Assembly (NCBI RefSeq): GCF_020171745.1 | Contig: NZ_JAIVAH010000017.1 | Span: 1 to 64,000, forward strand | Length of the DNA: 64,000 bases | From: Prescottella equi | Lineage (GTDB): Bacteria > Actinomycetota > Actinomycetes > Mycobacteriales > Mycobacteriaceae | Direction: 5' to 3' | Shown: one piece after another, positions 52,248 through 64,000 of the stretch | Layout: the number at the start of each line of letters is the position of its first letter | How positions within the stretch are numbered: position 1 is the first letter of the stretch | Translations under genes and position numbers: made by a program | Notes under the pieces: model-generated | The model's input: the letters and a program-made list of their open reading frames with translations, nothing else | Database searches by the model: none | What the model was told of the DNA's origin: nothing

Positions 52248-55200
52248 ATGGTGAGGTTGAGCGGCGCCCTGCGCAGGGGCGTCATCCGAACTGTGGTCAT
52301 GGCCATGTTGGCCGCCATGGTTACGATTACGACCGCGACGGTCGGCGCAGGGACCGCGGCAGCGGCGGAGGCGCTGAGTTGCGATGTGCTCTACGCGGTC
52401 AACAACAACGATTCGAATGCGTATCGAATCAATCAGGCCGACGGCAAGGCTACGGCCGATTTCAAGTTGAAGACGAGCAGCCCTAACCAGTTGGGAATCG
52501 GGGTCGGGGGCGCGTACGCGGTCTACACGGATCAGAACAAGATCTACAAGTACAACGCAAGCACCGGAGAAACGTCGGAAACCAATCGTCCGAGCGGCTA
52601 TCAGACGTTTCAGGGTGCCGTGAACCCGAAGAACGGTTTGTACTATTTCGGCGGATACGTCGATAACGGCGGATTCAAGTACGGCGTCTACGACCCTGGC
52701 ACCAATTCCGTCGTGCCCGGCGACGTGAAGGTGAATGTCACTACGTCGCGGCCTGGCACCAACGGAGACATCGCGTTCGATGCGGCCGGCAACCTCTACA
52801 TCGTGTCGTCGGGAAGCGGTGAGGGCCTGGTCTACTCGGTTCCCGGGCCGATCAACGCGAACTCGACGGTGACGGCAACGGCAACCACGGGCAAGTCGAA
52901 GGCGTTCGCAAGCGCAACCTCGATCGCCTTCGGTTCCGACGGATACCTGTACGTCGGCAGGACCGGAAGCAAAGATTTGACTCGCGTCGACCCGGCGACC
53001 GGTGCGACCGTCAAGACCTTGAGCAGCATGGAAATGTACGACCTCGGCTCGTGCAGCGACCCGTACTCGATCGAGTTGCGTAAGGACCTTCCGGCGGGGC
53101 GTGTCGCGGACGGTGACCAGTTCTTACTCGAGGTAACCGGCGGCGGAGTCAGCACTGGCAATACCGCAACGACCACGGGAAGCGCCACGGGTGTCCAGCC
53201 GGTCAAGGTGGGACCGCTCTTGGGGCTTCCCGGTACCGAGTACACCATCAAGGAGACGGCGAAGAACGGTGCGGATCTCGCCAACTACAACGTGACCTGG
53301 CAGTGTCTCGACGCGAAGACCAACGCGAAGCTGTCGAACGGCGCCGGCGCATCCGGCAAGGTGTCGCTTCCCAGCACGAAGGGTGGTGCGAGTGTCATCT
53401 GCACCTTCACCAACGGGTCCCTGAAGTCCGGTCTCGCCCTGGAGAAGACGGCCGCGCCGAACGCTCCGGCAGATTTCAAGGTCGGCAAGACGATCACCTA
53501 CAGCTTCAAGATGACCAACACCGGCGATGTGACGCTCAAAGACGTCAAGCCGGTCGAGAAGGCGTTCTCCGGCAAGGCGCAGATGTCGGACTTCTCCTGC
53601 CCCGATGGCGCGAAGTCGTTGGCGGCCAAGGCTTCCGTGACCTGTACCGCGACCTATGTCCTCCAGCAGGAGGACATCGACCGCGGGACTCTCGACAACA
53701 CCGCGACCGCGACCGGCACGGATCCGGGTGGCAAGCCGGTGAACTCGGACGAGTCGAAGGTCCCGCTCAAGGGTGGTCCGACCACGCCCGGTATCTCGAT
53801 CGAGAAGACCGCGTCGCCCAAGTCTGCCGAGAGCTACAAGCTGGGCCAGACGATCAAGTACAGCTTCAAGGTCACCAACACCGGTGACGTGACGTTGCGG
53901 AACATCAAGGTGAACGAGGGATCGTTCACGGGTGCCGGCCCGCTGTCGGCGGTCGAGTGCCCCGCGACGGCAGCGTCTCTCGCACCGAAGACGTCGGTGA
54001 CGTGCACGGCGGAGTACACGCTGACGCAGAAGGACATCGACAACGGAAAGATCGAGAACTCGGCGACCGCCACGGGCACACCGCCGGGCACCGACACGCC
54101 GATCGTCTCCCCTCCGGGCAAGGAGATCGTCGAGGGAAATCCCGCCAAGTCGCTGTCACTGGTGAAGGACGCGTCGCCGTCGACCACCGCGGATTACAAG
54201 GTGGACCAGGAGATCTCGTACTCGTTCCTGATCAAGAACACCGGTGACGTGACACTGACCGACGTGCATCCGAACGAGACGAACTTCTCGGGTTCGGGCG
54301 ACATGTCGGCGTTCGACTGCCCGGCGGGCGCGGCGTCGCTGGCGCCGGGTGCGTCGGTGACCTGCACGGCGAAGTACACGCTGACGCAGGCCGACATCGA
54401 TGCCGGCAAGTTGGAGAACACCGCCACCGCGACGGGCACCCCGCCGTCGGGCGGGCCGGTCACGTCGAATCCGTCGGACAAGACGCTCTCGGGCGAGCCG
54501 AAGCCGGCGATCAGCCTGGAGAAGACTGCGTCACCTGCTGATCCCGACGAGTTCCAGGTGGGCAAGACCGTCACCTACACGTTCACGATGACGAACACCG
54601 GCAACGTGACGCTGACGAACGTCGTGCCCAACGAGGTGTCGTTCACGGGCGACAAGTCCAAGTTGAGTGCCTTCGATTGCCCGGACAAGTCGAAGCCGTT
54701 GGCTCCCAACGCCTCCGTGAAGTGCACCGCCACGTACACGCTGACCCAGGCGGACGTGGACCGGGGCAAGCTCGACAACGTCGCGACGGCGACGGGCACT
54801 CCGCCGTCGGGTGGTCCGGTCACGTCCGAAGAGGACGACGCGAAGCTGACTGGCAACCAGAAGCCGAACCTCGAGATCGTCAAGACCGCGTCGCCCAACG
54901 GCGTCTCGGACTTCAAGGTCGGCCAGAAGGTCACCTACACCTTCGACATCACCAACACGGGCAACCAGACCCTGACGAACGTCAAGGTCGTCGAAGGCGC
55001 GTTCACCGGCAGCGGTGAGCTCTCCGACGTGTCCTGCCCGGACGGTGCCAAGTCCATGGCGCCGGGTGCCAAGGTGCAGTGCACGGCGACGTACGAGCTG
55101 ACGCAGGCCGACATCAACGCGGGCAAGCTCGACAACGCCGCGACCGCGACCGGCACGCCCCCGGGGACCGACGAGCCGATCGAGTCCCCGCAGGACGAGG

Positions 55201-57005
55201 AGAACCTCGCCGGCGATCCCAAGTCGGCGCTGAAGCTCGAGAAGACCGCGGAGCCGCGGGAGAACGTCAAGGTGAACGACACCGTCACCTACAAGTTCAC
55301 GATCACCAACACCGGTGATCAGACCCTGAAGGACGTCGGCGTCAAGGAGAACGAGTTCTCCGGCAAGGGAACGCTGTCCGCGATCACCTGCCCGGACGAT
55401 GCCAAGAAGCTGGATCCCGGCAAGTCGGTGACCTGTGAGGCCACCTACACGTTCACCGTCGACGACATGAACGTCGGCACGGTCGAGAACACCGCCACGG
55501 CGACCGGAACCCCGCCGTCGGGAACGCCGATCGAGTCCGATCCGTCGAACGTCGACGTCACCGGTAAGCAGGCGCCTCAGCTCGAGGTCGTCAAGTCTGC
55601 GTCGCTGACGAGCCTGGACGGCTTCAAGGCCGGCGCGAAGGTGAAGTACTCCTTCGCGGTCACCAACACCGGCAACGTCACGATGGCGAACGTCACGATC
55701 AAGGAGGGTGACTTCTCCGGTACCGGCACGATCACCGAGATGACGTGCCCGGACGAGGCGAAGTCGCTGGCGCCGAACGAGCAGGTGACCTGCACGGCGC
55801 TGTACGAGCTGACCCAGGCCGACGTCGATGCCGGCAAGGTGGACAACACTGCGACCGCGACCGGCACGCCGCCGGGCACCGACACGCCGATCGAGTCGCC
55901 GCCGTCGGACGGTGGGATCGAGGGCACTCCGAACCCGGACCTGTCGATCGTGAAGACCGCGTCGATCTCCGATTCGTCGGAGTTCAAGGTGGGCAAGGAG
56001 ATCACCTACTCGTTCGTGATCACGAACACCGGTGACGTGACGCTCACCGACGTTCGCCCGAACGAGAAGTCCTTCACCGGTTCCGGCCCGATGTCGGATC
56101 CGATCTGTGAGGCGGGCGCGAGCTCGTTGGCGCCGAACGATTCGGTGAACTGCACGGCGACATACACGCTCACGCAGGCCGACATCGACAACGGCAAGCT
56201 CGACAACGTCGCGACCGCGACCGGCACCACGCCGGGCAAGGAACCGATCGAGTCGCCGGAGTCGCAGGTGTCGCTGCCGGGTCATCCGCATCCGGGCATC
56301 AGCATTGTCAAGAAGGCGAACCCGCGCGAGAAGGTGAAGCTGGGGCAGGAGGTCACCTACCGGTTCGTGATCACCAACGTCGGTGACGTCACGCTGAAGG
56401 ACGTCAAGGTGAACGAGGGCGAGTTCACCGGCACCGGGACCATGTCGGCGATCACCTGCCCCGATGGTGCGAAGTCGCTGGCACCGAAGGATTCGGTGGC
56501 CTGCACCGCGACGTACGTCGTGACCAGGGCCGACGTCAAGGCCGGTCGCATCGACAACGTTGCGACCGCGACGGGCACGAACCCGAAGGGTGACGACGTC
56601 GTGTCGGAGCCGTCGAACGAGACGGTGACGCCGGACAAGTCGAGCTTCCCGGGTCTGATCATCATTCCGATCATTCCGGGGCTCCTGACGGGCTCGCTCG
56701 GCTCGACCGGGTCGACGGGATCTGCGGGTGAGCCGGCGGGGACCGATACTCCGGTCATCGATGGCAACCCCACCGGTGAGGGCAACCAGCCGGGACAGGG
56801 CCCGGGCACGGGCACGGACGCCGAGAACCAGGCGTCGAATCCCAAGGGCGGACTGATCGATTCCGGTCTGGGCGCCGACGGTGACGGCGGACTGAACGCC
56901 GGTCTCGTCGCCGGGGGACTGGCGCTGCTGGTCGCCGCGGGCGGTGTGCTGGTCCTGGCACTGCGCAGGCGCAAGGCCGAGGAAGGTGATGTCACGGATC
57001 TGTGA
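52248..57005 (+). CDS. Giant surface protein with beta-propeller-like head and nine DUF7507 repeats
   Basis: 1585 residues. A signal peptide (cleaved near GTAAAAEA, about residue 41) is followed by a 230-residue head rich in short beta repeats (LYAVNNNDSNAYRI, GYAVYTDQ-like strands, AGNLYIVSSG, DGYLYVGRTG) resembling DUF6923/propeller domains. A prealbumin-like domain comes next (about 272-392). Then nine repeats of about 117-120 residues (395-1463) each read EKTASP, KVG..TYSF..TNTGDVTL, a Cys pair and NTATATGTPP. The end is GLIIIPI, a Gly/Ser/Thr/Pro spacer, LIDSG at 1536-1540, one membrane helix and RRRK. There is no LPXTG. Probably a wall-linked stalk; function unknown. Confidence 0.85.
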   Translation: MVRLSGALRRGVIRTVVMAMLAAMVTITTATVGAGTAAAAEALSCDVLYAVNNNDSNAYRINQADGKATADFKLKTSSPNQLGIGVGGAYAVYTDQNKIYKYNASTGETSETNRPSGYQTFQGAVNPKNGLYYFGGYVDNGGFKYGVYDPGTNSVVPGDVKVNVTTSRPGTNGDIAFDAAGNLYIVSSGSGEGLVYSVPGPINANSTVTATATTGKSKAFASATSIAFGSDGYLYVGRTGSKDLTRVDPATGATVKTLSSMEMYDLGSCSDPYSIELRKDLPAGRVADGDQFLLEVTGGGVSTGNTATTTGSATGVQPVKVGPLLGLPGTEYTIKETAKNGADLANYNVTWQCLDAKTNAKLSNGAGASGKVSLPSTKGGASVICTFTNGSLKSGLALEKTAAPNAPADFKVGKTITYSFKMTNTGDVTLKDVKPVEKAFSGKAQMSDFSCPDGAKSLAAKASVTCTATYVLQQEDIDRGTLDNTATATGTDPGGKPVNSDESKVPLKGGPTTPGISIEKTASPKSAESYKLGQTIKYSFKVTNTGDVTLRNIKVNEGSFTGAGPLSAVECPATAASLAPKTSVTCTAEYTLTQKDIDNGKIENSATATGTPPGTDTPIVSPPGKEIVEGNPAKSLSLVKDASPSTTADYKVDQEISYSFLIKNTGDVTLTDVHPNETNFSGSGDMSAFDCPAGAASLAPGASVTCTAKYTLTQADIDAGKLENTATATGTPPSGGPVTSNPSDKTLSGEPKPAISLEKTASPADPDEFQVGKTVTYTFTMTNTGNVTLTNVVPNEVSFTGDKSKLSAFDCPDKSKPLAPNASVKCTATYTLTQADVDRGKLDNVATATGTPPSGGPVTSEEDDAKLTGNQKPNLEIVKTASPNGVSDFKVGQKVTYTFDITNTGNQTLTNVKVVEGAFTGSGELSDVSCPDGAKSMAPGAKVQCTATYELTQADINAGKLDNAATATGTPPGTDEPIESPQDEENLAGDPKSALKLEKTAEPRENVKVNDTVTYKFTITNTGDQTLKDVGVKENEFSGKGTLSAITCPDDAKKLDPGKSVTCEATYTFTVDDMNVGTVENTATATGTPPSGTPIESDPSNVDVTGKQAPQLEVVKSASLTSLDGFKAGAKVKYSFAVTNTGNVTMANVTIKEGDFSGTGTITEMTCPDEAKSLAPNEQVTCTALYELTQADVDAGKVDNTATATGTPPGTDTPIESPPSDGGIEGTPNPDLSIVKTASISDSSEFKVGKEITYSFVITNTGDVTLTDVRPNEKSFTGSGPMSDPICEAGASSLAPNDSVNCTATYTLTQADIDNGKLDNVATATGTTPGKEPIESPESQVSLPGHPHPGISIVKKANPREKVKLGQEVTYRFVITNVGDVTLKDVKVNEGEFTGTGTMSAITCPDGAKSLAPKDSVACTATYVVTRADVKAGRIDNVATATGTNPKGDDVVSEPSNETVTPDKSSFPGLIIIPIIPGLLTGSLGSTGSTGSAGEPAGTDTPVIDGNPTGEGNQPGQGPGTGTDAENQASNPKGGLIDSGLGADGDGGLNAGLVAGGLALLVAAGGVLVLALRRRKAEEGDVTDL
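53430..56640 (+). repeat. Nine in-gene DUF7507 repeats (about 355-bp period)
   Basis: Repeat units begin near 53430, 53790, 54150, 54508, 54868, 55228, 55579, 55939 and 56296. Each encodes a beta-sandwich unit with two conserved cysteines (CPDGAKS-type and VTCTATY) and ends NTATATGTPP followed by a Pro/Ser/Glu-rich linker. Units 6 and 9 are shorter at the start (RENVKVN, REKVKLG). The regular spacing and strong similarity suggest growth by duplication. Confidence 0.9.
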
Positions 57006-57022
57006 TGATCACTGACGATTGA

Positions 57023-57061
57023 CAGGGTGGCCCGAGACGATGTTCGTCTCGGGCCACCCTG
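57023..57061 (+). terminator. Intrinsic terminator between the two giant genes
   Basis: A perfect 18-bp stem (CAGGGTGGCCCGAGACGA and complement) with a three-base loop lies 17 bases after the stop of the first giant gene, followed by CTTCTG. It makes the two giant genes separate transcription units. Confidence 0.88.
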
Positions 57062-57512
57062 CTTCTGTCGGGAGTCTTCGTCGGATCGGTTCACGGCCTC
57101 GCCGGCTTTTGCGCGATCGGTCGCCGGACCCGCTGCGACGCAGTGTCGTACGACACATTCCGCGCGCTCCGACCGGGTCCGGTGCGAGGCGGTCGAAGAA
57201 TCTGCAGCGGAGTGTCGTGGATCACTTTCCGTCGGGCGGGTGGATGAATTAGAGGGTGAGATTCCGGTTGGCCCTCGGGCGCTGTGGCATGCCGGTCGAT
57301 CTGCGGCCCGGTTCTGAATTCCGCAGTGGCGCATTGCGTTATTCGTCCGACCGGTTGCGTTGACGGTGGTGTTGTGCCGTCGCCGACACTTTTTTGTATC
57401 ACCTTTCGTGTCGCCATCTCGTGTATATGAGGTGTTTGTCCTTTTCTCCGTAGTCGCCGAACTCTCCTCAGGCGTGCGGCAAATCGGGTGTGTCGAACGA
57501 AAGGTGTCCTTC
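57062..57512 (+). promoter_or_regulatory. Control region upstream of the LPVTG adhesin
   Basis: About 450 bases after the terminator without a credible gene. The last 130 bases are clearly AT-richer than the surroundings (ACTTTTTTGTATC at 57388 onwards; TATATG at 57424-57429 as a possible -10). GAAAGGTG at 57499 serves as ribosome-binding site. A dedicated promoter is likely; no operator dyad was seen. Confidence 0.5.
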
Positions 57513-60500
57513 ATGCGTAAACGTGTCTTCCTGCGGCGTGCCGGAGGGGAGGTGGTGTCTAGGTGGGCGGCGCTGGGGATGATCTTTGCGGTCATGGCGT
57601 TGGTCTTGACTTCGTTCTCGATCGCCCCGGTTGCCTCGGCGAACCCGAGCGCGACCTCGACCACCCCTGCTCCGACGCAGACTGCCGAGAGTTCGCCCTC
57701 GACAACGGAACGGAGCTCCGCTCCGGCAGCACCCACGACCACGACCACGACCACGACGAAGGCGCCGGCGGTGACCACGTCGGAGTCGCCCGCAACCACG
57801 ACGAAGGCGCCGGCCGAGTCGAAGGCGCCCGCGACCACGACGAGCGTGGCCCCCACGACGGCGCAGCGAAGCGCGGCGCGTGGACTCAACCCCGGCATCG
57901 AGGTCGCGATCACCGAGGTCAAGGTCGTGGGAACTCCCGGCCCGCAGATCAAGGTCGGGGACTCCGTCGAGGTGAGCGGCACGTGGGACGCGTCGAAGAC
58001 CACTCCCAAAAAGGGTGACGAGTTCACGATCAAGTTCCCCGACGAGCTGAAGTTCCCGGCCAACCAGCCGATCGCTCTCGAGGGGACCGACAACGGCAGT
58101 CCGATCATCTGGGGCAACTGCGAGCTGGTGGCCGCCACCAATCTCATGACCTGTGTGCTCACCGACGCCGTGGACGGCCGCGAACTGGACGTGTTCGGCA
58201 CCTTCACGGTCTACACGAAGGCAGTCGAGCGCACCACGTCCGAGACGGTGAACTTCACGATCAACAATGAGGTCGTGGCGGTCGATCTGCCCGGTACGGG
58301 CGGCATCAGCGACGGCGTCACCATCGGCGAGGCCAAGAAGTCCGGCAAGCTCCAGGACAACAAGCAGTCCGTGCGTTGGACGATCGATATCCCCGGCGCA
58401 GATCTGGCCGCTCTGGACACCGGCAACGGTTCGGTGAACCTGACCGATGCGCTCTCGGGCAACATGAAGCTGTGCGCGGGCACCCTGCCCAACGCCAAGC
58501 TGCTGGTCGGCCGGGACAAATTCGATGAGGTCTCGGGCGGTGTCACCGTCAGCCAGGCTGCTGCGGGCGCTCCCGTCTCCATCGCGATCACCAACGGTGC
58601 GGCTTTCAAGAGCGACATGGTCTACCGCGTCGAGTACACCTCGTGCACGGTCAGCGGTGAGGCAGACGCTGCCGGGACTGTTTACGACAACTCCGTGCAG
58701 ATCGGCGGCAAGACTGTGAGCGCGCTTGGCGTCGGGCAGGACTTTGTCCCGAAGACCGCGCCGTCCAAGTCTGGAAGTCTGGACAAGGGTAAGCGCTACA
58801 TGGAGGCCGACTGGTCGATCCTGGTCCCGGGCAGCTACATTGCCGGCATCACCACCCCGGACAAGAAGGTCACCATTGTGGAGACTCTCGGTACCGGGCA
58901 CGCCGTCTGCAAGTCGGGCCTCGATCTGAGGATCGAGCGCGCCAACCGACTGCCTGCATTGGATGGCTCGGGTTACGGACGCACCACCGTCACCGGCGAT
59001 TTCGACGTCGCCGTCACAGGTGCCACGGAGGGCGCCACGACCTTCACCGTGACAATCACGCCGAAGGATGCCGGCACGATCGACCCGAAGCAGTACTACT
59101 ACGTCACCTACCGGAGCTGCCTCACCGGGAGCGAGGTGCCGGACAACACGGTGGAGTTCACCAACTCGGCGACGGTGAACACTGATCCGGTCACCGCTAC
59201 GGCGAAGGGTCCCGCATTCGAGGGCAGCAAGAGCGGCGCGCTCAACAAGACGCCGCGGATGGTCGCCGGAGAGGCGCAGCCGGCCGGCACGACCCTCGAC
59301 TGGAAGGTGGAGATCCCCGGACGCCACCTCGAGACGCTCACGGAACGTGCGGTCGTCACGGACACCTTCTCGGACACCCTGACCGTGTGTGAGGTCGGCA
59401 ACGATCTCAAGGCGAACCTCAATCTCAAGGTCGTTGCGAAGGACTTCCTCGGCACCAACAGTGTCAACCCGGAGCGCGACCTCACCGCCGCCACCACGGT
59501 CGAGCGAACCGCCGACGGGATCAAGTTCACCCTCCCGAAGGACGAGGACGCCGGCGACTACAACCGTGAGATCCGGTACTTCATCGACTACACCCTGTGC
59601 ACCGCCAGCGGTGGGCTGGATCAGTTCGGCACGGAGTACCGAAACTCGCTTGCCTACACGGGCAACATCATCAACTCGAAGAGCGTCGAGCAGACCTGGG
59701 GCGGTGGCGGCACCGGTACCGGTGTGACGCGCGGCTCGTTCTCGCTCCAGAAGGAGGCCGCACCGCTCTCCAAGGAGTTCCCGGAGGACACCGAGTTCAC
59801 CGTGAAGGTCGAGGAGTTCGCCCCCGGGAACGATCCGGCGAACAACAAGCCGACCAGCACCTACAACATCAAGGTGAAGGCCGACGGAACGCCGGTCAAC
59901 GGGCACAACCCCCGCGGCACCGGCTGGCAGATCCGCCTGTCCGAGATCGACCTGCCCACCGTCGGCGGCGTCTACTTCGAACAGGGCAAGTTCCGCCCGG
60001 CAGCGGGCGTGACCCTCAACGCGGACCAGACCCAGGCGCTGGTGACCATCACGCCGAAGGCCAACATCGGTGTCACCCTGCTGAACAAGGCCGTCCTGGG
60101 CAAGGCGACGATCACCAAGACCGTCATCGGTGACGGGCTCGGTGACCTCTCCGGCAACGAGTCGTTCGTCATCAACGCGCGCATCGACGACAATGACGAC
60201 GCCACCGGCACCGAGGTGCGCCAGTTCACCCTGAAGAGCGGTCAGCACTTCGAGCTGAAGGACCTGCCCATCGGAGCGAAGGTCACCTTCGACGAGGTCC
60301 TGCCGCTGAACACCGACCGCGTGACGTGGGCGGCGCCGGTGATCGTGCCGAACACGCTCACCATCGGTACCAACGCCGCGGCGAACACGGTCTCCATCAC
60401 CAACGAGGCCAAGATCACCTACGGCTCGTTCGACGTGAGGAAGGCGCTCACCGGACCGGAGGCGTTCAACAAGAACGTGCCGGCCACCTTCGACGTGACC

Positions 60501-62267
60501 GCCACTTGGACGGGCACGGACGGAGTCGAGCAGACCAAGACGCTGAAGCTCCCGAAGGACGGCAGCACGGTTTCGTTCGGTGAGAACCTGCCCGGTGGCA
60601 CCAAGGTGACGCTGACCGAGACGGTTCCGGCGAACGGTAGCGGTCTCGCCTGGAGCGTGCCCGCATACGCCGGGAACGTCACCGCCGGCGCACCCGGCTC
60701 GGCCGTGGTGACCATCGGCAAGGACCGGGGCCAGGTCGAGGTGAAGAACTACGTCGACACCAACGACGGCACCCTGCGCATCACCAAGCAGGTCAGCGGC
60801 GAGGCCGCCGAGGCCGTCGGAGACGAGGCGTTCACGGTCGAGGCGCGCTGGCAGGACGGCACGGAGTTCCGCTTCAAGGAACTGACCGTCAAGCAGGGCG
60901 AGAGCACGCCGCTCGGCGTCGACATCCCTGTCGGTACCCAGGTGACCTTCACCGAGAAGGGGCGTCCCGGCATCGACCGAGTCGAGTGGGGCACGACCTC
61001 GTGGGGCACTGACCCGACCGGGGGCTCCTGGCTCATCTCGAACGCCGACGGCACCGCGACGGGCATCGTCTCGGACGCCCCGATCGACGGTCGATTGATC
61101 ACCCTGTCGAACGAGGCGCTGTGGAAGTTCGGCTCGGTCGAGTTCACGAAGTTCATCCTCGACGGGGATGACCTCATCCGCGCCACCGAGGCTGACCTGC
61201 CCGAGGGTGCTGAGTTCAAGGTCAAGATCGATGGCATCACGCCGGCGCTGCCCGAGGGAACCGAGTTCCCGGCAGTGAACGAGACCATCACCCTCAATGC
61301 CGAGAACGACTGGAGCTGGACGTCCGGCGAGGTGCTGCCGCGGGACACCGTGATCACCTTCGCCGAGGTCGATCCCGCTGCCCTGCCCGGAATCTCCTGG
61401 GCGCGGCCGTACTACAACGTGGCTGCGGACGCCGGTGAACCCGGCCACCGCAATACCGTCGAGGTCGTGGCGGGTGACAAGGCAGTGGTGGAGATCCACA
61501 ACCGCCCGATCCCGACCACGGACGTGGACATCGACAAGATCGTGACCGGCCCCAAGGGCAAGCAGGTGACGGAGCACGAGTCCACGACCTTCCAGGTCAC
61601 GGCCACGTGGACGGACGTCGACGGTGAGGATCGCACCTGCGTCCTCGACGTCAAGCCGGGCGGCTCGGTCAGCCCGACCGCCGGGTGTGACGCGGCCGTC
61701 GTCGACGGCCGGGTCTACTTCCCGCGCGACACGGAGATCACCTTCGCCGAGACCGGCGCACTCACCGACGTGACCAACGTCAAGTGGGGCGAGGTCGTGT
61801 GGGGCGTCAACGAGGGCGAGGCGGAGGTTGCCACGATCGACGGCAAGTCGACCGCTGTCTCCGTCACCCTCACCGGTGACGCGAACGAGTCGGTGGTGCT
61901 GGGTCTCGAGAACAAGACCAGCAGCAACGGTCTGATCATCATCCCGCTCCCGATCCCGCTGCCGCCGTGGGGTGGATCGCTGACCCCGCCGGGGACCGGA
62001 TCCGACGGGCCGACCCCGCCGGTCTCCGGCCAGCCGGAGCAGCCGGGCCAGCCGGGCCAGCCGGGTTCGCCGGAACAGCCGGGTAACTCCGGCCACAACG
62101 GTGCTCCGGGCCAGCCGGCTCCGGGCAAACCTGCTCCGGACCAGTCGTCGTCGCTGCCCGTGACGGGTGCGAACGTCGTCTGGCTCGCCGGTGCGGCGCT
62201 CGTGCTGATCGCCGGTGGCGGATGGCTCACGCTGCGTAACCGCAGGCGGGTGACCGGCGAGGGCTAG
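57513..62267 (+). CDS. Giant LPVTG-anchored adhesin with DUF5979-type repeats
   Basis: 1584 residues. The signal peptide is cleaved near VASANPS (about 43), followed by a Thr/Pro/Ser linker with poly-Thr (45-125). Adhesin-type Ig-like domains follow (about 128-740): one opening domain (VSGTWDASKTTPKKGDEF, as in MSCRAMM heads), then three related units starting SGKL, SGSL and SGAL with paired cysteines. Six DUF5979-like units start near 741, 864, 971, 1086, 1207 and 1337. The tail is GLIIIPLPIPLPP at 1473, a PGQ/PEQ-rich wall spacer, LPVTG at 1548-1552, a membrane helix and RNRRR. ATG 57513 follows GAAAGGTG. Confidence 0.9.
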   Translation: MRKRVFLRRAGGEVVSRWAALGMIFAVMALVLTSFSIAPVASANPSATSTTPAPTQTAESSPSTTERSSAPAAPTTTTTTTTKAPAVTTSESPATTTKAPAESKAPATTTSVAPTTAQRSAARGLNPGIEVAITEVKVVGTPGPQIKVGDSVEVSGTWDASKTTPKKGDEFTIKFPDELKFPANQPIALEGTDNGSPIIWGNCELVAATNLMTCVLTDAVDGRELDVFGTFTVYTKAVERTTSETVNFTINNEVVAVDLPGTGGISDGVTIGEAKKSGKLQDNKQSVRWTIDIPGADLAALDTGNGSVNLTDALSGNMKLCAGTLPNAKLLVGRDKFDEVSGGVTVSQAAAGAPVSIAITNGAAFKSDMVYRVEYTSCTVSGEADAAGTVYDNSVQIGGKTVSALGVGQDFVPKTAPSKSGSLDKGKRYMEADWSILVPGSYIAGITTPDKKVTIVETLGTGHAVCKSGLDLRIERANRLPALDGSGYGRTTVTGDFDVAVTGATEGATTFTVTITPKDAGTIDPKQYYYVTYRSCLTGSEVPDNTVEFTNSATVNTDPVTATAKGPAFEGSKSGALNKTPRMVAGEAQPAGTTLDWKVEIPGRHLETLTERAVVTDTFSDTLTVCEVGNDLKANLNLKVVAKDFLGTNSVNPERDLTAATTVERTADGIKFTLPKDEDAGDYNREIRYFIDYTLCTASGGLDQFGTEYRNSLAYTGNIINSKSVEQTWGGGGTGTGVTRGSFSLQKEAAPLSKEFPEDTEFTVKVEEFAPGNDPANNKPTSTYNIKVKADGTPVNGHNPRGTGWQIRLSEIDLPTVGGVYFEQGKFRPAAGVTLNADQTQALVTITPKANIGVTLLNKAVLGKATITKTVIGDGLGDLSGNESFVINARIDDNDDATGTEVRQFTLKSGQHFELKDLPIGAKVTFDEVLPLNTDRVTWAAPVIVPNTLTIGTNAAANTVSITNEAKITYGSFDVRKALTGPEAFNKNVPATFDVTATWTGTDGVEQTKTLKLPKDGSTVSFGENLPGGTKVTLTETVPANGSGLAWSVPAYAGNVTAGAPGSAVVTIGKDRGQVEVKNYVDTNDGTLRITKQVSGEAAEAVGDEAFTVEARWQDGTEFRFKELTVKQGESTPLGVDIPVGTQVTFTEKGRPGIDRVEWGTTSWGTDPTGGSWLISNADGTATGIVSDAPIDGRLITLSNEALWKFGSVEFTKFILDGDDLIRATEADLPEGAEFKVKIDGITPALPEGTEFPAVNETITLNAENDWSWTSGEVLPRDTVITFAEVDPAALPGISWARPYYNVAADAGEPGHRNTVEVVAGDKAVVEIHNRPIPTTDVDIDKIVTGPKGKQVTEHESTTFQVTATWTDVDGEDRTCVLDVKPGGSVSPTAGCDAAVVDGRVYFPRDTEITFAETGALTDVTNVKWGEVVWGVNEGEAEVATIDGKSTAVSVTLTGDANESVVLGLENKTSSNGLIIIPLPIPLPPWGGSLTPPGTGSDGPTPPVSGQPEQPGQPGQPGSPEQPGNSGHNGAPGQPAPGKPAPDQSSSLPVTGANVVWLAGAALVLIAGGGWLTLRNRRRVTGEG

Positions 62268-62290
62268 TCCCTCGGCCGACACACGGTAAC

Positions 62291-62325
62291 GGGGCGGGCG
62301 CGATCTACCGGGTCGCGCCCGCCCC
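62291..62325 (+). terminator. Hairpin after the adhesin gene
   Basis: GGGGCGGGCGCGA (62291-62303) and TCGCGCCCGCCCC (62313-62325) form a perfect 13-bp stem with a 9-base loop, 23 bases after the adhesin stop. There is no T-tract. It may stop or thin transcription into the sortase genes, setting substrate to sortase ratio. Confidence 0.75.
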
Positions 62326-62412
62326 GGACCGGTGCCACACCGAATTCCGCTGACCAGCGGATCAGAAATGTCGCGGCCGATTGTTCGGCCGCCCTCGAAA
62401 GGAGAATCTTCC

Positions 62413-62553
62413 GTGCTCGTCCTCCCGCTCTCTCTCACCTTCGATGTCCAGACCACCGGTTCCGCCGTGATCGACGGTCTCGGTCGGTTGTCCGTCCTTC
62501 TCTATGATCTGCTCGGTGGCGGCGGAAGCGCCGCGATCAACCTGGGCAGCTAG
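62413..62553 (+). CDS. 46-residue hydrophobic peptide before the sortase
   Basis: The GTG at 62413 follows a strong AAAGGAG (62398-62404). The product (MLVLPLSLTFDVQTTGSAVI, then DGLGRLSVLLYDLLGGGG and SAAINLGS) has a hydrophobic start and a hydrophobic or amphipathic middle with a glycine run, but no clear export signal or cysteine. I recognise no family. The good ribosome-binding site and its place between adhesin and sortase genes argue that it is translated. Confidence 0.6.
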   Translation: MLVLPLSLTFDVQTTGSAVIDGLGRLSVLLYDLLGGGGSAAINLGS

Positions 62554-62586
62554 CCGGTTCGACACCTGTGGAGGGGGCTCCGGCCC

Positions 62587-63390
62587 ATGCGTGACACCAA
62601 AGTTCCTGGGCCGCAGCGGACCCGGCCGAATGTGGGCCGGGTCATCGGCGAACTGCTCCTCACCGCGGGGGTCGTCGTCCTGCTGTACGTCTTCTACGAG
62701 GCGTACTGGACGAATATCGTCTCGGGGCGGCTGCAGGACGAGGTCGACAACAACCTGACGGAATCCTGGGGTAGAGGGGCGGCCGGCGGCGAGCCGGTCG
62801 CCCCGCCGTCCCCGGCTCTCGGCGAAGGTTTTGCGCGCGTGCATATTCCCGTCCTTGATGCGGCCTACGCGGTCGTGGAGGGCACACGCAACGAGGACCT
62901 GCGGGCCGGTCCCGGCCACTATGTCGACTCGCAGATGCCCGGCGAGCCCGGAAATTTCGCGCTCGCCGGGCATCGCATCGGTACCGGTGCGGTGTTCCAG
63001 CACCTGGATCGGCTCGACACCTGTGATGCCGTGGTCGTGGAGACCGAATTTCAATGGGTCACTTACCGAGTGCTCCCGCTCGACGCCACTGCGCCCGAAC
63101 GCCGCGCTGCGGCGTCAGCCTGCCTGAGTCCGGAGCAGGTCGATCGGGTCGCCGACGGCGACTACGCCCACCTCCAGGGACGGCACATCACTACGCCCGA
63201 CGACATCGAGGTCGTCAACCCACTGCCCGGCGCCCCGTGGGTCGAGCCGCACCCGGGGCTGGAAAGCATCCTCACGCTCACCACGTGTCATCCACTGTTC
63301 TCGAACTCCGAACGCATGATCGTGCATGCCGTTCGCGTCGAGACCGTCTCGAAGTCGTCGGGCAACCTGCCTGCGGCGTTGCAGGAGTAG
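62587..63390 (+). CDS. Class E sortase
   Basis: 267 residues. One N-terminal membrane anchor (VIGELLLTAGVVVLLYVFY) is followed by a linker and the sortase beta-barrel. The catalytic triad is complete: His129 in LAGHRIG, Cys234 in TLTTCHP and Arg243 in NSERMIV. TLTTCHP and the anchor at the N-terminus fit class E, the actinobacterial housekeeping group. It should cleave a five-residue signal such as LPVTG or LAXTG after Thr and attach the protein to the peptidoglycan cross-bridge. GGAGGGGGC lies upstream of the ATG. Confidence 0.92.
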   Translation: MRDTKVPGPQRTRPNVGRVIGELLLTAGVVVLLYVFYEAYWTNIVSGRLQDEVDNNLTESWGRGAAGGEPVAPPSPALGEGFARVHIPVLDAAYAVVEGTRNEDLRAGPGHYVDSQMPGEPGNFALAGHRIGTGAVFQHLDRLDTCDAVVVETEFQWVTYRVLPLDATAPERRAAASACLSPEQVDRVADGDYAHLQGRHITTPDDIEVVNPLPGAPWVEPHPGLESILTLTTCHPLFSNSERMIVHAVRVETVSKSSGNLPAALQE

Positions 63391-63394
63391 ACAG

Positions 63395-63547
63395 ATGTAC
63401 GGCTATCTCTGGCGCATGCTCCCGGGTCCTCGACCGGTGAAGGCGCTACTGGCGATCGCCCTCGCGGTCGCGTTCGTGCTGCTGCTCATGGAAGTCGTAT
63501 TCCCGTGGGTGTCCGAGCAGATGCCCTACTCTGACGTCACCGTATAG
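63395..63547 (+). CDS. 50-residue membrane protein paired with the sortase
   Basis: A single hydrophobic helix (VKALLAIALAVAFVLLLMEVV) between a basic start (MYGYLWRMLPGPRP) and an acidic end (FPWVSEQMPYSDVTV). Proteins of this size ending FPWV...DVTV commonly follow class E sortase genes in actinobacteria, as I recall, but have no assigned function. It starts four bases after the sortase stop, behind GCAGGAG, so it is co-translated and may be a sortase subunit or chaperone. Confidence 0.75.
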   Translation: MYGYLWRMLPGPRPVKALLAIALAVAFVLLLMEVVFPWVSEQMPYSDVTV

Positions 63548-63562
63548 GGGAGGACGGCAGGC

Positions 63563-64000
63563 ATGGGTAGGCACGAGGCCAGGCGACGAGCCGGTCGGGG
63601 CGGGACGATCCTGATGGTCGTCGTCGCGCTGATCCTGCTCGCGGGGGGTGGAGTCCTCGTCTTCCGCGGGTTGCAGCCCGAGCCTGCGGCGGCTGCGCCG
63701 GTGCCTCGGTCGACGTTCGATCTGTCGCCCGACGGCGTCGCGGATCCGGTCGACGGCGCTGTGCCGGGGATCGGCGCGGGTGGGAAGGCGCGCAAGCCCG
63801 GGCCGGCGGCGGAGAACCCGGCGGATCGGCCGCAGGTGCCGTTCGGGCCGCTGCCCGACAACAGTGTGGTGATCCCGGCGATCGGGGTGGAGACCACGCT
63901 TGATCCGCTCGGATTGGCGGCGGATCAGAGCCTGTTGTTGCCGCGGGACGTGAGTCAGGTGACGTACTGGACGGGCTCGGCGCCGATCGATGCCCCGGAC
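63563..64000 (+). CDS. Class F sortase, N-terminal part (cut by window end)
   Basis: 146 codons are visible and the frame is still open at the window edge. A basic N-terminus and one anchor helix (TILMVVVALILLAGGGVLVF) lead into a Pro/Ala-rich linker, then the opening strands of a sortase fold (VVIPAIGVETTLDPLGL, LLLPRDVSQVTYWTGS). Those strands are typical of class F. The catalytic His, Cys and Arg would lie beyond the end. GGGGAGGACGG precedes the ATG. Class F enzymes often sit away from substrates; here one lies beside a class E enzyme. Confidence 0.8.
   Translation, partial: MGRHEARRRAGRGGTILMVVVALILLAGGGVLVFRGLQPEPAAAAPVPRSTFDLSPDGVADPVDGAVPGIGAGGKARKPGPAAENPADRPQVPFGPLPDNSVVIPAIGVETTLDPLGLAADQSLLLPRDVSQVTYWTGSAPIDAPD

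Follow-up and report, generated by a model that had tools for sequence, protein, structure and literature searches.

Two candidate sortase-substrate pairs with different sorting signals in a putative surface-protein locus of Prescottella equi

Two giant proteins, two sortases and two small proteins in one locus

We analyzed a 64,000-nucleotide stretch of Prescottella equi DNA (the window; positions 1-64000 of contig C17, which has 273,839 bases, in a genome of 5.49 Mb) and found that its last six genes encode two giant proteins, two sortases and two small proteins. Comparison with related genomes indicates that this locus probably holds two sortase-substrate pairs: the class E sortase SrtE with the LPVTG signal of giant 2, and the class F-like sortase SrtF with an LIDSG signal in giant 1. 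A preliminary description of the same DNA had presented the six genes as a self-contained adhesin or fiber-assembly system of a mycolate-bearing actinobacterium. All six genes were found where it had placed them, the reading frames agree with its lengths of 1585 and 1584 residues for the giants, and the named relatives, Rhodococcus and Prescottella, fit the proposed host. Beyond what was recorded there, both giants end in a membrane span and a basic tail, preceded by LIDSG in giant 1 and by LPVTG in giant 2.

All of our evidence is comparative, and cleavage, anchoring and adhesion are proposed from it. We used 14 genomes of the same genus (within which the presence of SrtE was searched), 201 genomes of the family (Nocardiaceae) and a class-wide sample of 296 Actinomycetes genomes; genes in the loci were called by our own simple gene finder, and start sites are approximate. 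The six genes are not products of chance: orthologues recur in relatives and the two small proteins, P46 and TM50, vary mostly at synonymous sites.

Giant 1 (52248..57005, + strand; 1585 amino acids [aa]) has what we read as a signal-like N-terminus, followed by a head at about residues 46-270 that appears propeller-like (weak PQQ/Kelch matches under cut-off), a SpaA_3 domain and nine DUF7507/DUF11 units of ~120 residues each (Pfam). Each DUF7507 unit contains a pair of Cys 15 residues apart that may form a disulfide. After a Gly/Ser linker, the protein ends with GGLIDSGLGADGDGG, a membrane span and an RRRK tail. The proposed sorting signal, LIDSG, lies at residues 1536-1540 (56853..56867, + strand); an LPXTG is absent from giant 1, and the tail scored 15.2 bits against NF058571 (the GVDTG sorting domain), for which the cut-off is 29. 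Giant 1 had no match among PDB sequences at E <=0.01.

SrtF (63563..64000, + strand, within the window; the gene ends at contig position 64300) has the first 146 of its 245 aa inside the window, and the catalytic His and Cys, like the Asn that replaces Arg, all lie past 64000. The preliminary description had called this gene the start of a class F sortase; the gene does run on and carries the Asn that marks class F, which hhalign aligned with R243 of SrtE, but the score of 78.7 bits against NF033748 is under the cut-off of 166. NF033748 was the sole NCBIfam match at E <=0.1, and we therefore call the enzyme "class F-like." Its predicted structure (predicted local distance difference test [pLDDT] 93.4) has a sortase fold, with 2XWG as the best match (E 3.7e-7, template modeling [TM] score 0.64). 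SrtF alone had no match among PDB sequences at E <=0.01, and a class F profile reached distant sortases (best 4.4e-9); among solved structures, the modeled fold has no close relative. Named relatives of SrtF come from Prescottella defluvii, P. equi, P. agglutinans and Rhodococcus sp. OK519, which places the genus as Rhodococcus/Prescottella.

Giant 2 (57513..62267, + strand) has 1584 aa when read from ATG 57513, which is preceded by a purine-rich stretch; the open frame begins at TTG 57360 and would give 1635 aa. Its Pfam domains are Big_8 and DUF7926, both in the head, and four DUF5979 units, and its C-terminus has LPVTG (62154..62168, + strand), a membrane span and a basic tail, scoring 18.4 bits against TIGR01167 (cut-off 15.9). 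An AlphaFold model of the head, built from four sequences, had a pLDDT of 83 and a predicted TM score (pTM) of 0.51; Foldseek matched it to PrgB, antigen I/II, UafA, SdrC and Cna at E 1e-14 to 1e-9, but at low TM scores of 0.14-0.35. The head may resemble the tandem DE-variant Ig head of MSCRAMM and antigen I/II adhesins. Giant 2 had no match among PDB sequences at E <=0.1. Repeated beta-sandwich units, as claimed earlier, agree with the Pfam domains of giant 1. They also agree with the DUF5979, Big_8 and DUF7926 domains of giant 2 and with its head model, and the reading of the giants as adhesin-like proteins with sortases beside probable substrates is likewise supported.

SrtE (62587..63390, + strand; 267 aa) has the catalytic His-Cys-Arg set and scored 241.7 bits against the class E model NF033747 (cut-off 160); this score and the reading frames bear out the class E sortase, 46-aa peptide and 50-aa membrane protein reported before. 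Arg occupies the catalytic position in all 12 aligned class E sequences, SrtE included. No convincing LPXTG protein other than giant 2 turned up in the genome (the match ranked next, at E 0.15, has no LPXTG), and therefore SrtE looks dedicated to giant 2; for the same reason, the housekeeping role usually given to class E enzymes suits SrtE poorly. The LAXTG preference of a class E sortase has been tied to a Tyr in the beta3/beta4 loop, according to the available text of that study (PMC5148588). The corresponding loop of SrtE, which we place by an alignment of L165 to 5GO5, reads GHRIGTG and has no Tyr, as is true of all 12 class E sequences read. We do not use this rule to assign SrtE to LPXTG or LAXTG, since two giant-2 relatives (L271 and L272) have LAVTG in place of LPVTG and their sortases also lack the Tyr.

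P46 (62413..62553, + strand; GTG start), a conserved peptide of 46 aa, lies between giant 2 and SrtE; the window copy had no Pfam or NCBIfam match. Its relatives of 46-55 aa (L269:2294-2437, L270:2124-2270, L271:1323-1478 and L272:2595-2762) share a core like QTTGSA..D.LGRLSVLLYDLLGG and keep this position in 12 genomes of 4 genera. TM50 (63395..63547, + strand; 50 aa, one membrane span) accompanies class E sortases (also at L165:2289-2444), among them a second class E sortase of genome G142 (40% identical), near which giant 2 was not seen.

On the mechanism we propose, SrtE would cleave the LPVTG of giant 2 and link the protein to the wall, with P46 and TM50 as conserved accessories. SrtF would recognize I-D-S-G in giant 1 in place of P-X-T-G, presumably cut between Ser and Gly, and link giant 1, with its long DUF7507 stalk and propeller-like head, to the wall as the likely acceptor. 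Both giants may then be exposed at the surface and take part in adhesion.

Tail type follows the sortase clade

For the pairing of giant 1 with SrtF, the evidence from the family covers 120 stretches around NF033748 matches and the loci of the window's own genome (further listed matches were left out; no class F gene was called in L113, L134 and L152). We read 120 class F genes, of which 57 are immediate neighbors of a membrane-tailed protein (the neighbor rule): in 56 cases this protein lies just upstream in the same orientation, and in one case it is divergent. The pattern [IV][DEN][TSAG]G occurs in 38 of these 57 tails, compared to 6 of the 168 other membrane-tailed proteins of the same loci; all six come from class F loci (the window, L038, L046, L048, L110 and L134, the last with a sortase that the NF033748 search matched and the gene finder missed). 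A wider pattern gave 41/57 vs 10/176, and these 10 proteins comprise five from class F loci, one with LPMTG and four that seem to be chance matches. An alignment of 59 tails showed that the motif Gly is invariant; the residue before it is T (29), A (13), S (9) or G (8), and the next positions outward are mostly D (30) or E (17) and then V (27) or I (17).

Tail type and sortase clade co-vary. In a tree of 59 sortases, tail type changes 5 times (minimum 4, shuffled mean 34.9), compared to 21 times for genus. A single branch sets off the ID[ST]G tails (10 rows, 3 genera, support 84), and another the I[DN]GG tails (7 rows, 4 genera, support 99); SrtF clusters with the IDGG-type enzymes. Tail type follows the sortase clade, not the genus or the ectodomain. 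Across the 201 family genomes, an IDSG/IDGG-like tail and an I-type sortase occur together in 19, the sortase only in 1, the tail only in 3 and neither in 178 (Fisher 1.5e-22, kinship ignored); without the 14 genomes behind the tail model, the counts are 5, 1, 3 and 178 (Fisher 1.8e-7). Both P values overstate the association because the genomes are related.

Searching the window's own genome with the tail model returned four IDSG/IDAG proteins at E <=1.4e-11: giant 1; a 1320-aa DUF7507 protein on C10, encoded divergently from a further class F sortase; and one protein each on C9 and C11 (LIDAG on C11), contigs for which the sortase searches gave no match. A second SrtF (82%) in G142 adjoins an 881-aa protein with Big_8, DUF5979 and SdrD_B domains that is akin to giant 2 and ends in LIDSGLGAD, as giant 1 does; by BLASTP, it shares only the linker and tail with giant 1. 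The tail thus appears to go with the sortase, since a giant-2-like ectodomain carries a giant-1-type tail beside SrtF. Some co-variation is expected in any case because neighbors are inherited together, and both the G142 swap and the orphan tails argue that co-inheritance is not the whole explanation.

Several further observations weigh against the pairing. By the neighbor rule, a tailed neighbor is missing for 63 of the 120 class F genes of the family; this number falls to 61 if the window and L038, where other genes separate giant 1 from SrtF, are treated as paired. The strict motif fails in 19 of the 57 tails. In G009, the giant tail is ~44 kb away from SrtF. G041 has an I-type sortase without a tail; conversely, an I-type sortase is lacking in G071, G098 and G133, where the tail matches are weak. 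The 59-sortase tree is a quick one with long branches and no bootstraps, the I-type threshold (>60 bits apart) was chosen after the gap was seen, and some class F matches in the family search were left unfetched. For the other pair, the status of giant 2 as the sole LPXTG protein of the genome (G000) comes from one profile search, with LAXTG not searched separately.

We also noted, in L039, L045, L046, L139, L151 and L153, a sister clade of class F sortases whose neighboring proteins have IDGG tails; of these proteins, the L039 protein had a weak VWA match and the L046 protein a weak thioester-domain match.

Class F sortases across Actinomycetes

Class F sortases are widespread in the class: at E <=0.001, NF033748 matched in 215 of the 296 sampled genomes (124 over the cut-off). 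We read 50 class-wide loci (30 returned for best scores and 20 picked high scorers, some genomes repeated), a set that leans to high-scoring class F genes; in it, a membrane-tailed protein directly precedes 46 of 51 class F genes. All 46 tails fit [VIAPM]x[TSAG]G.?G (e.g., GSVKTGVGG), and the single LPXTG-like match, LAEAG, is located behind the motif. Of 171 class F genes, 168 have Asn where the catalytic Arg would be. On balance, we favor the view that class F sortases of Actinomycetes are dedicated enzymes with Asn for Arg and their own code, [V/I/A/P]-x-[T/S/A/G]-G without Leu-Pro, whose clades would read sub-codes such as IDSG and IDGG, and that the LPXTG specificity credited to class F stems from a class E enzyme.

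A rival reading is that SrtE anchors both giants, that SrtF has some other job and that the tail beside SrtF is a mere membrane anchor. The replacement of Arg by Asn in class F speaks for it. A study of Actinoplanes missouriensis agrees with this to the extent that, in its available text, deletion of all four class F genes gave no phenotype and deletion of srtE did (PMC13251363). However, the proteins beside srtF1 and srtF4 were left unanalyzed in that 2026 study, set aside for having no known pentapeptide (PMC13251363). A plain anchor also sits badly with a motif Gly kept in 59/59 tails, and G058 has giant 1 and SrtF without SrtE or the giant-2 head. ID[ST]G tails likewise adjoin I-type sortases without a giant-2 head in G017, G049 and G066 (SrtE was not searched there). 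We consider it unlikely that SrtE serves both giants.

Two observations concern individual class F genes. The class F-like gene of L148 (G172) lacks the His, Cys and Asn and is probably an inactive sortase. At L005:9217-11376, a class F sortase with a lipoprotein-like N-terminus adjoins a Gly/Ser/Leu-repeat protein ending in VPVGGVEAGD, and similar pairs are present in other genomes of the genus.

The two modules assort independently

We define module A as giant 1 and SrtF, and module B as giant 2, P46, SrtE and TM50. Among the 14 same-genus genomes, SrtE is present in 8 (in pieces in G183) and SrtF, 82-100% identical, in 7; G075 and G163 have SrtE without SrtF, and G058 has the reverse, pair A without module B. 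In G009, the two sortases lie ~38 kb apart (C1:1346781-1384734), compared to <200 bases in the window; the 38-kb stretch may be an insertion. In the family (n = 201), the giant-2 head occurs in 12 genomes, an IDSG-type SrtF in 10 among the class F genes read, and both in 6. Giant 2, P46 and SrtE stay together in all 12 genomes with the giant-2 head, from 4 genera (SrtE in pieces in G183), and TM50 is kept in 11 of the 12. Giant 1 adjoins SrtF in G058, G142, G153 and G183 (the giant is broken in G183); in the window, pair B sits between them. These comparisons describe the locus as two independently assorting modules, in which each giant appears to keep its own sortase. In G183 (Prescottella defluvii; C1:3030963-3031760) and in L042, the class E sortase and both giants are in several frames, which may reflect decay or sequencing error.

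The modules separate in both directions, and this bears directly on the possibility that all six genes form one co-operating system in which both sortases act on both giants and build a fiber or wall coat. The window and L038 do have the six genes side by side and identically ordered, and TM50 is 15 bases from SrtF in the window. However, the giants bear different tail codes, and the own genome has four sortases by PF04203 and NF033748 searches (best NCBIfam match class E for one and class F for three), with no class C among the four, so that fiber assembly, as suggested earlier, is not indicated. We rejected the joint system on the independent occurrence of its modules and regard it as improbable; the preliminary description had itself named independent occurrence of giants and sortases as evidence against its proposal, and this is what we found for the six genes as a whole, with each giant nonetheless keeping its own sortase. 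That the LIDSG tail is instead a signal for another C-terminal processing enzyme of the rhombosortase/exosortase type, with the nearby sortase incidental, is very improbable: giant 1 has a weak PVV-CTERM match (19.2 bits, cut-off 27), but such tails adjoin and co-vary with class F sortases (no rhombosortase or exosortase search was made).

Relation to known systems

The locus fits the description of the srt2 sortase island of R. equi 103S, reported in 2010 with two putative substrates, among them REQ27480 with LPVTG, one of which is also found in R. erythropolis (PMC2947987); we infer from this description that the locus is srt2. In the available text of that paper, the srt2 substrates are secreted proteins of unknown function, no IDSG-type signal is named, and only one protein beyond its two islands has sortase-substrate hallmarks (PMC2947987). 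The P. equi DSM 20307 locus has the same gene set as the window. In Actinoplanes, SrtE is a class E enzyme with LPVTG substrates, as proposed here, but it serves substrates at other loci, whereas one linked substrate was found for the SrtE of the window (comparison with the available text of PMC13251363).

The window tail resembles NF058571 (GVDTG_CTERM) in having a small-residue motif with Gly, a membrane span and a basic tail, and it differs in reading Ile-Asp-Ser-Gly instead of Val-Asp-Thr-Gly. The NF058571 entry line names no enzyme, and the model matches 45 of the 59 class F neighbor tails at E <=10. SrtF is like class F (NF033748) in its His and Cys, in Asn for Arg and in its place downstream of a tailed protein. 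As both SrtF and giant 1 fall below the curated cut-offs, we describe them as working like these models and not as members.

PDB 5UUS aligns with residues 42-267 of SrtE (1e-70) and keeps the Arg. Its score is 210 bits against the class E model (cut-off 160) and 19 against the class F model; by the curated models, it is a class E enzyme. We take it to be the enzyme from Cutibacterium acnes described in Di Girolamo 2019. In the parts available of two publications, 5UUS is shown as class F (PMC8361268, PMC9520033). The class F literature, as far as its text was available, gives these enzymes no designated function (role reported unknown in PMC13251363 and PMC6998099) or takes LPXTG as their signal because of the C. 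acnes enzyme.

We do not present as new the Asn in place of the catalytic Arg, which is already in print in the available text of PMC6998099, or a general GVDTG-type signal, which is already NF058571 in NCBIfam. A search of the open-access literature for "GVDTG" found no sortase paper by title and abstract. As far as our searches show, three things are new: the pairing of this kind of signal with class F enzymes, the IDSG/IDGG sub-code together with its clade, and the view of the locus as two modules. If the pairing is true, many class F substrates could be listed from sequence, actinobacterial surface proteins have been under-counted so far, and an orthogonal sortase code could serve protein ligation. 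The IDSG tail and its sortase fall under both curated cut-offs and are thus missed by existing database models.

Other features of the window

Two very stable hairpins without a T run follow the giants on the (+) strand: 57023..57061, 3′ of giant 1 (18 pairs, folding z -8.1; not on our terminator-like list), and 62291..62325, between giant 2 and P46 (16 pairs, folding z -5.0). The window search found no sigma-70 promoters, and terminators were at chance level. The G+C content of the giants is 0.61-0.67, compared to 0.67-0.70 in the preceding 8 kb and values down to 0.65 elsewhere in the window. Past contig position 64300, the genes 3′ of SrtF lie mostly on the opposite strand and, by our reading, resemble trehalose/glycogen enzymes.
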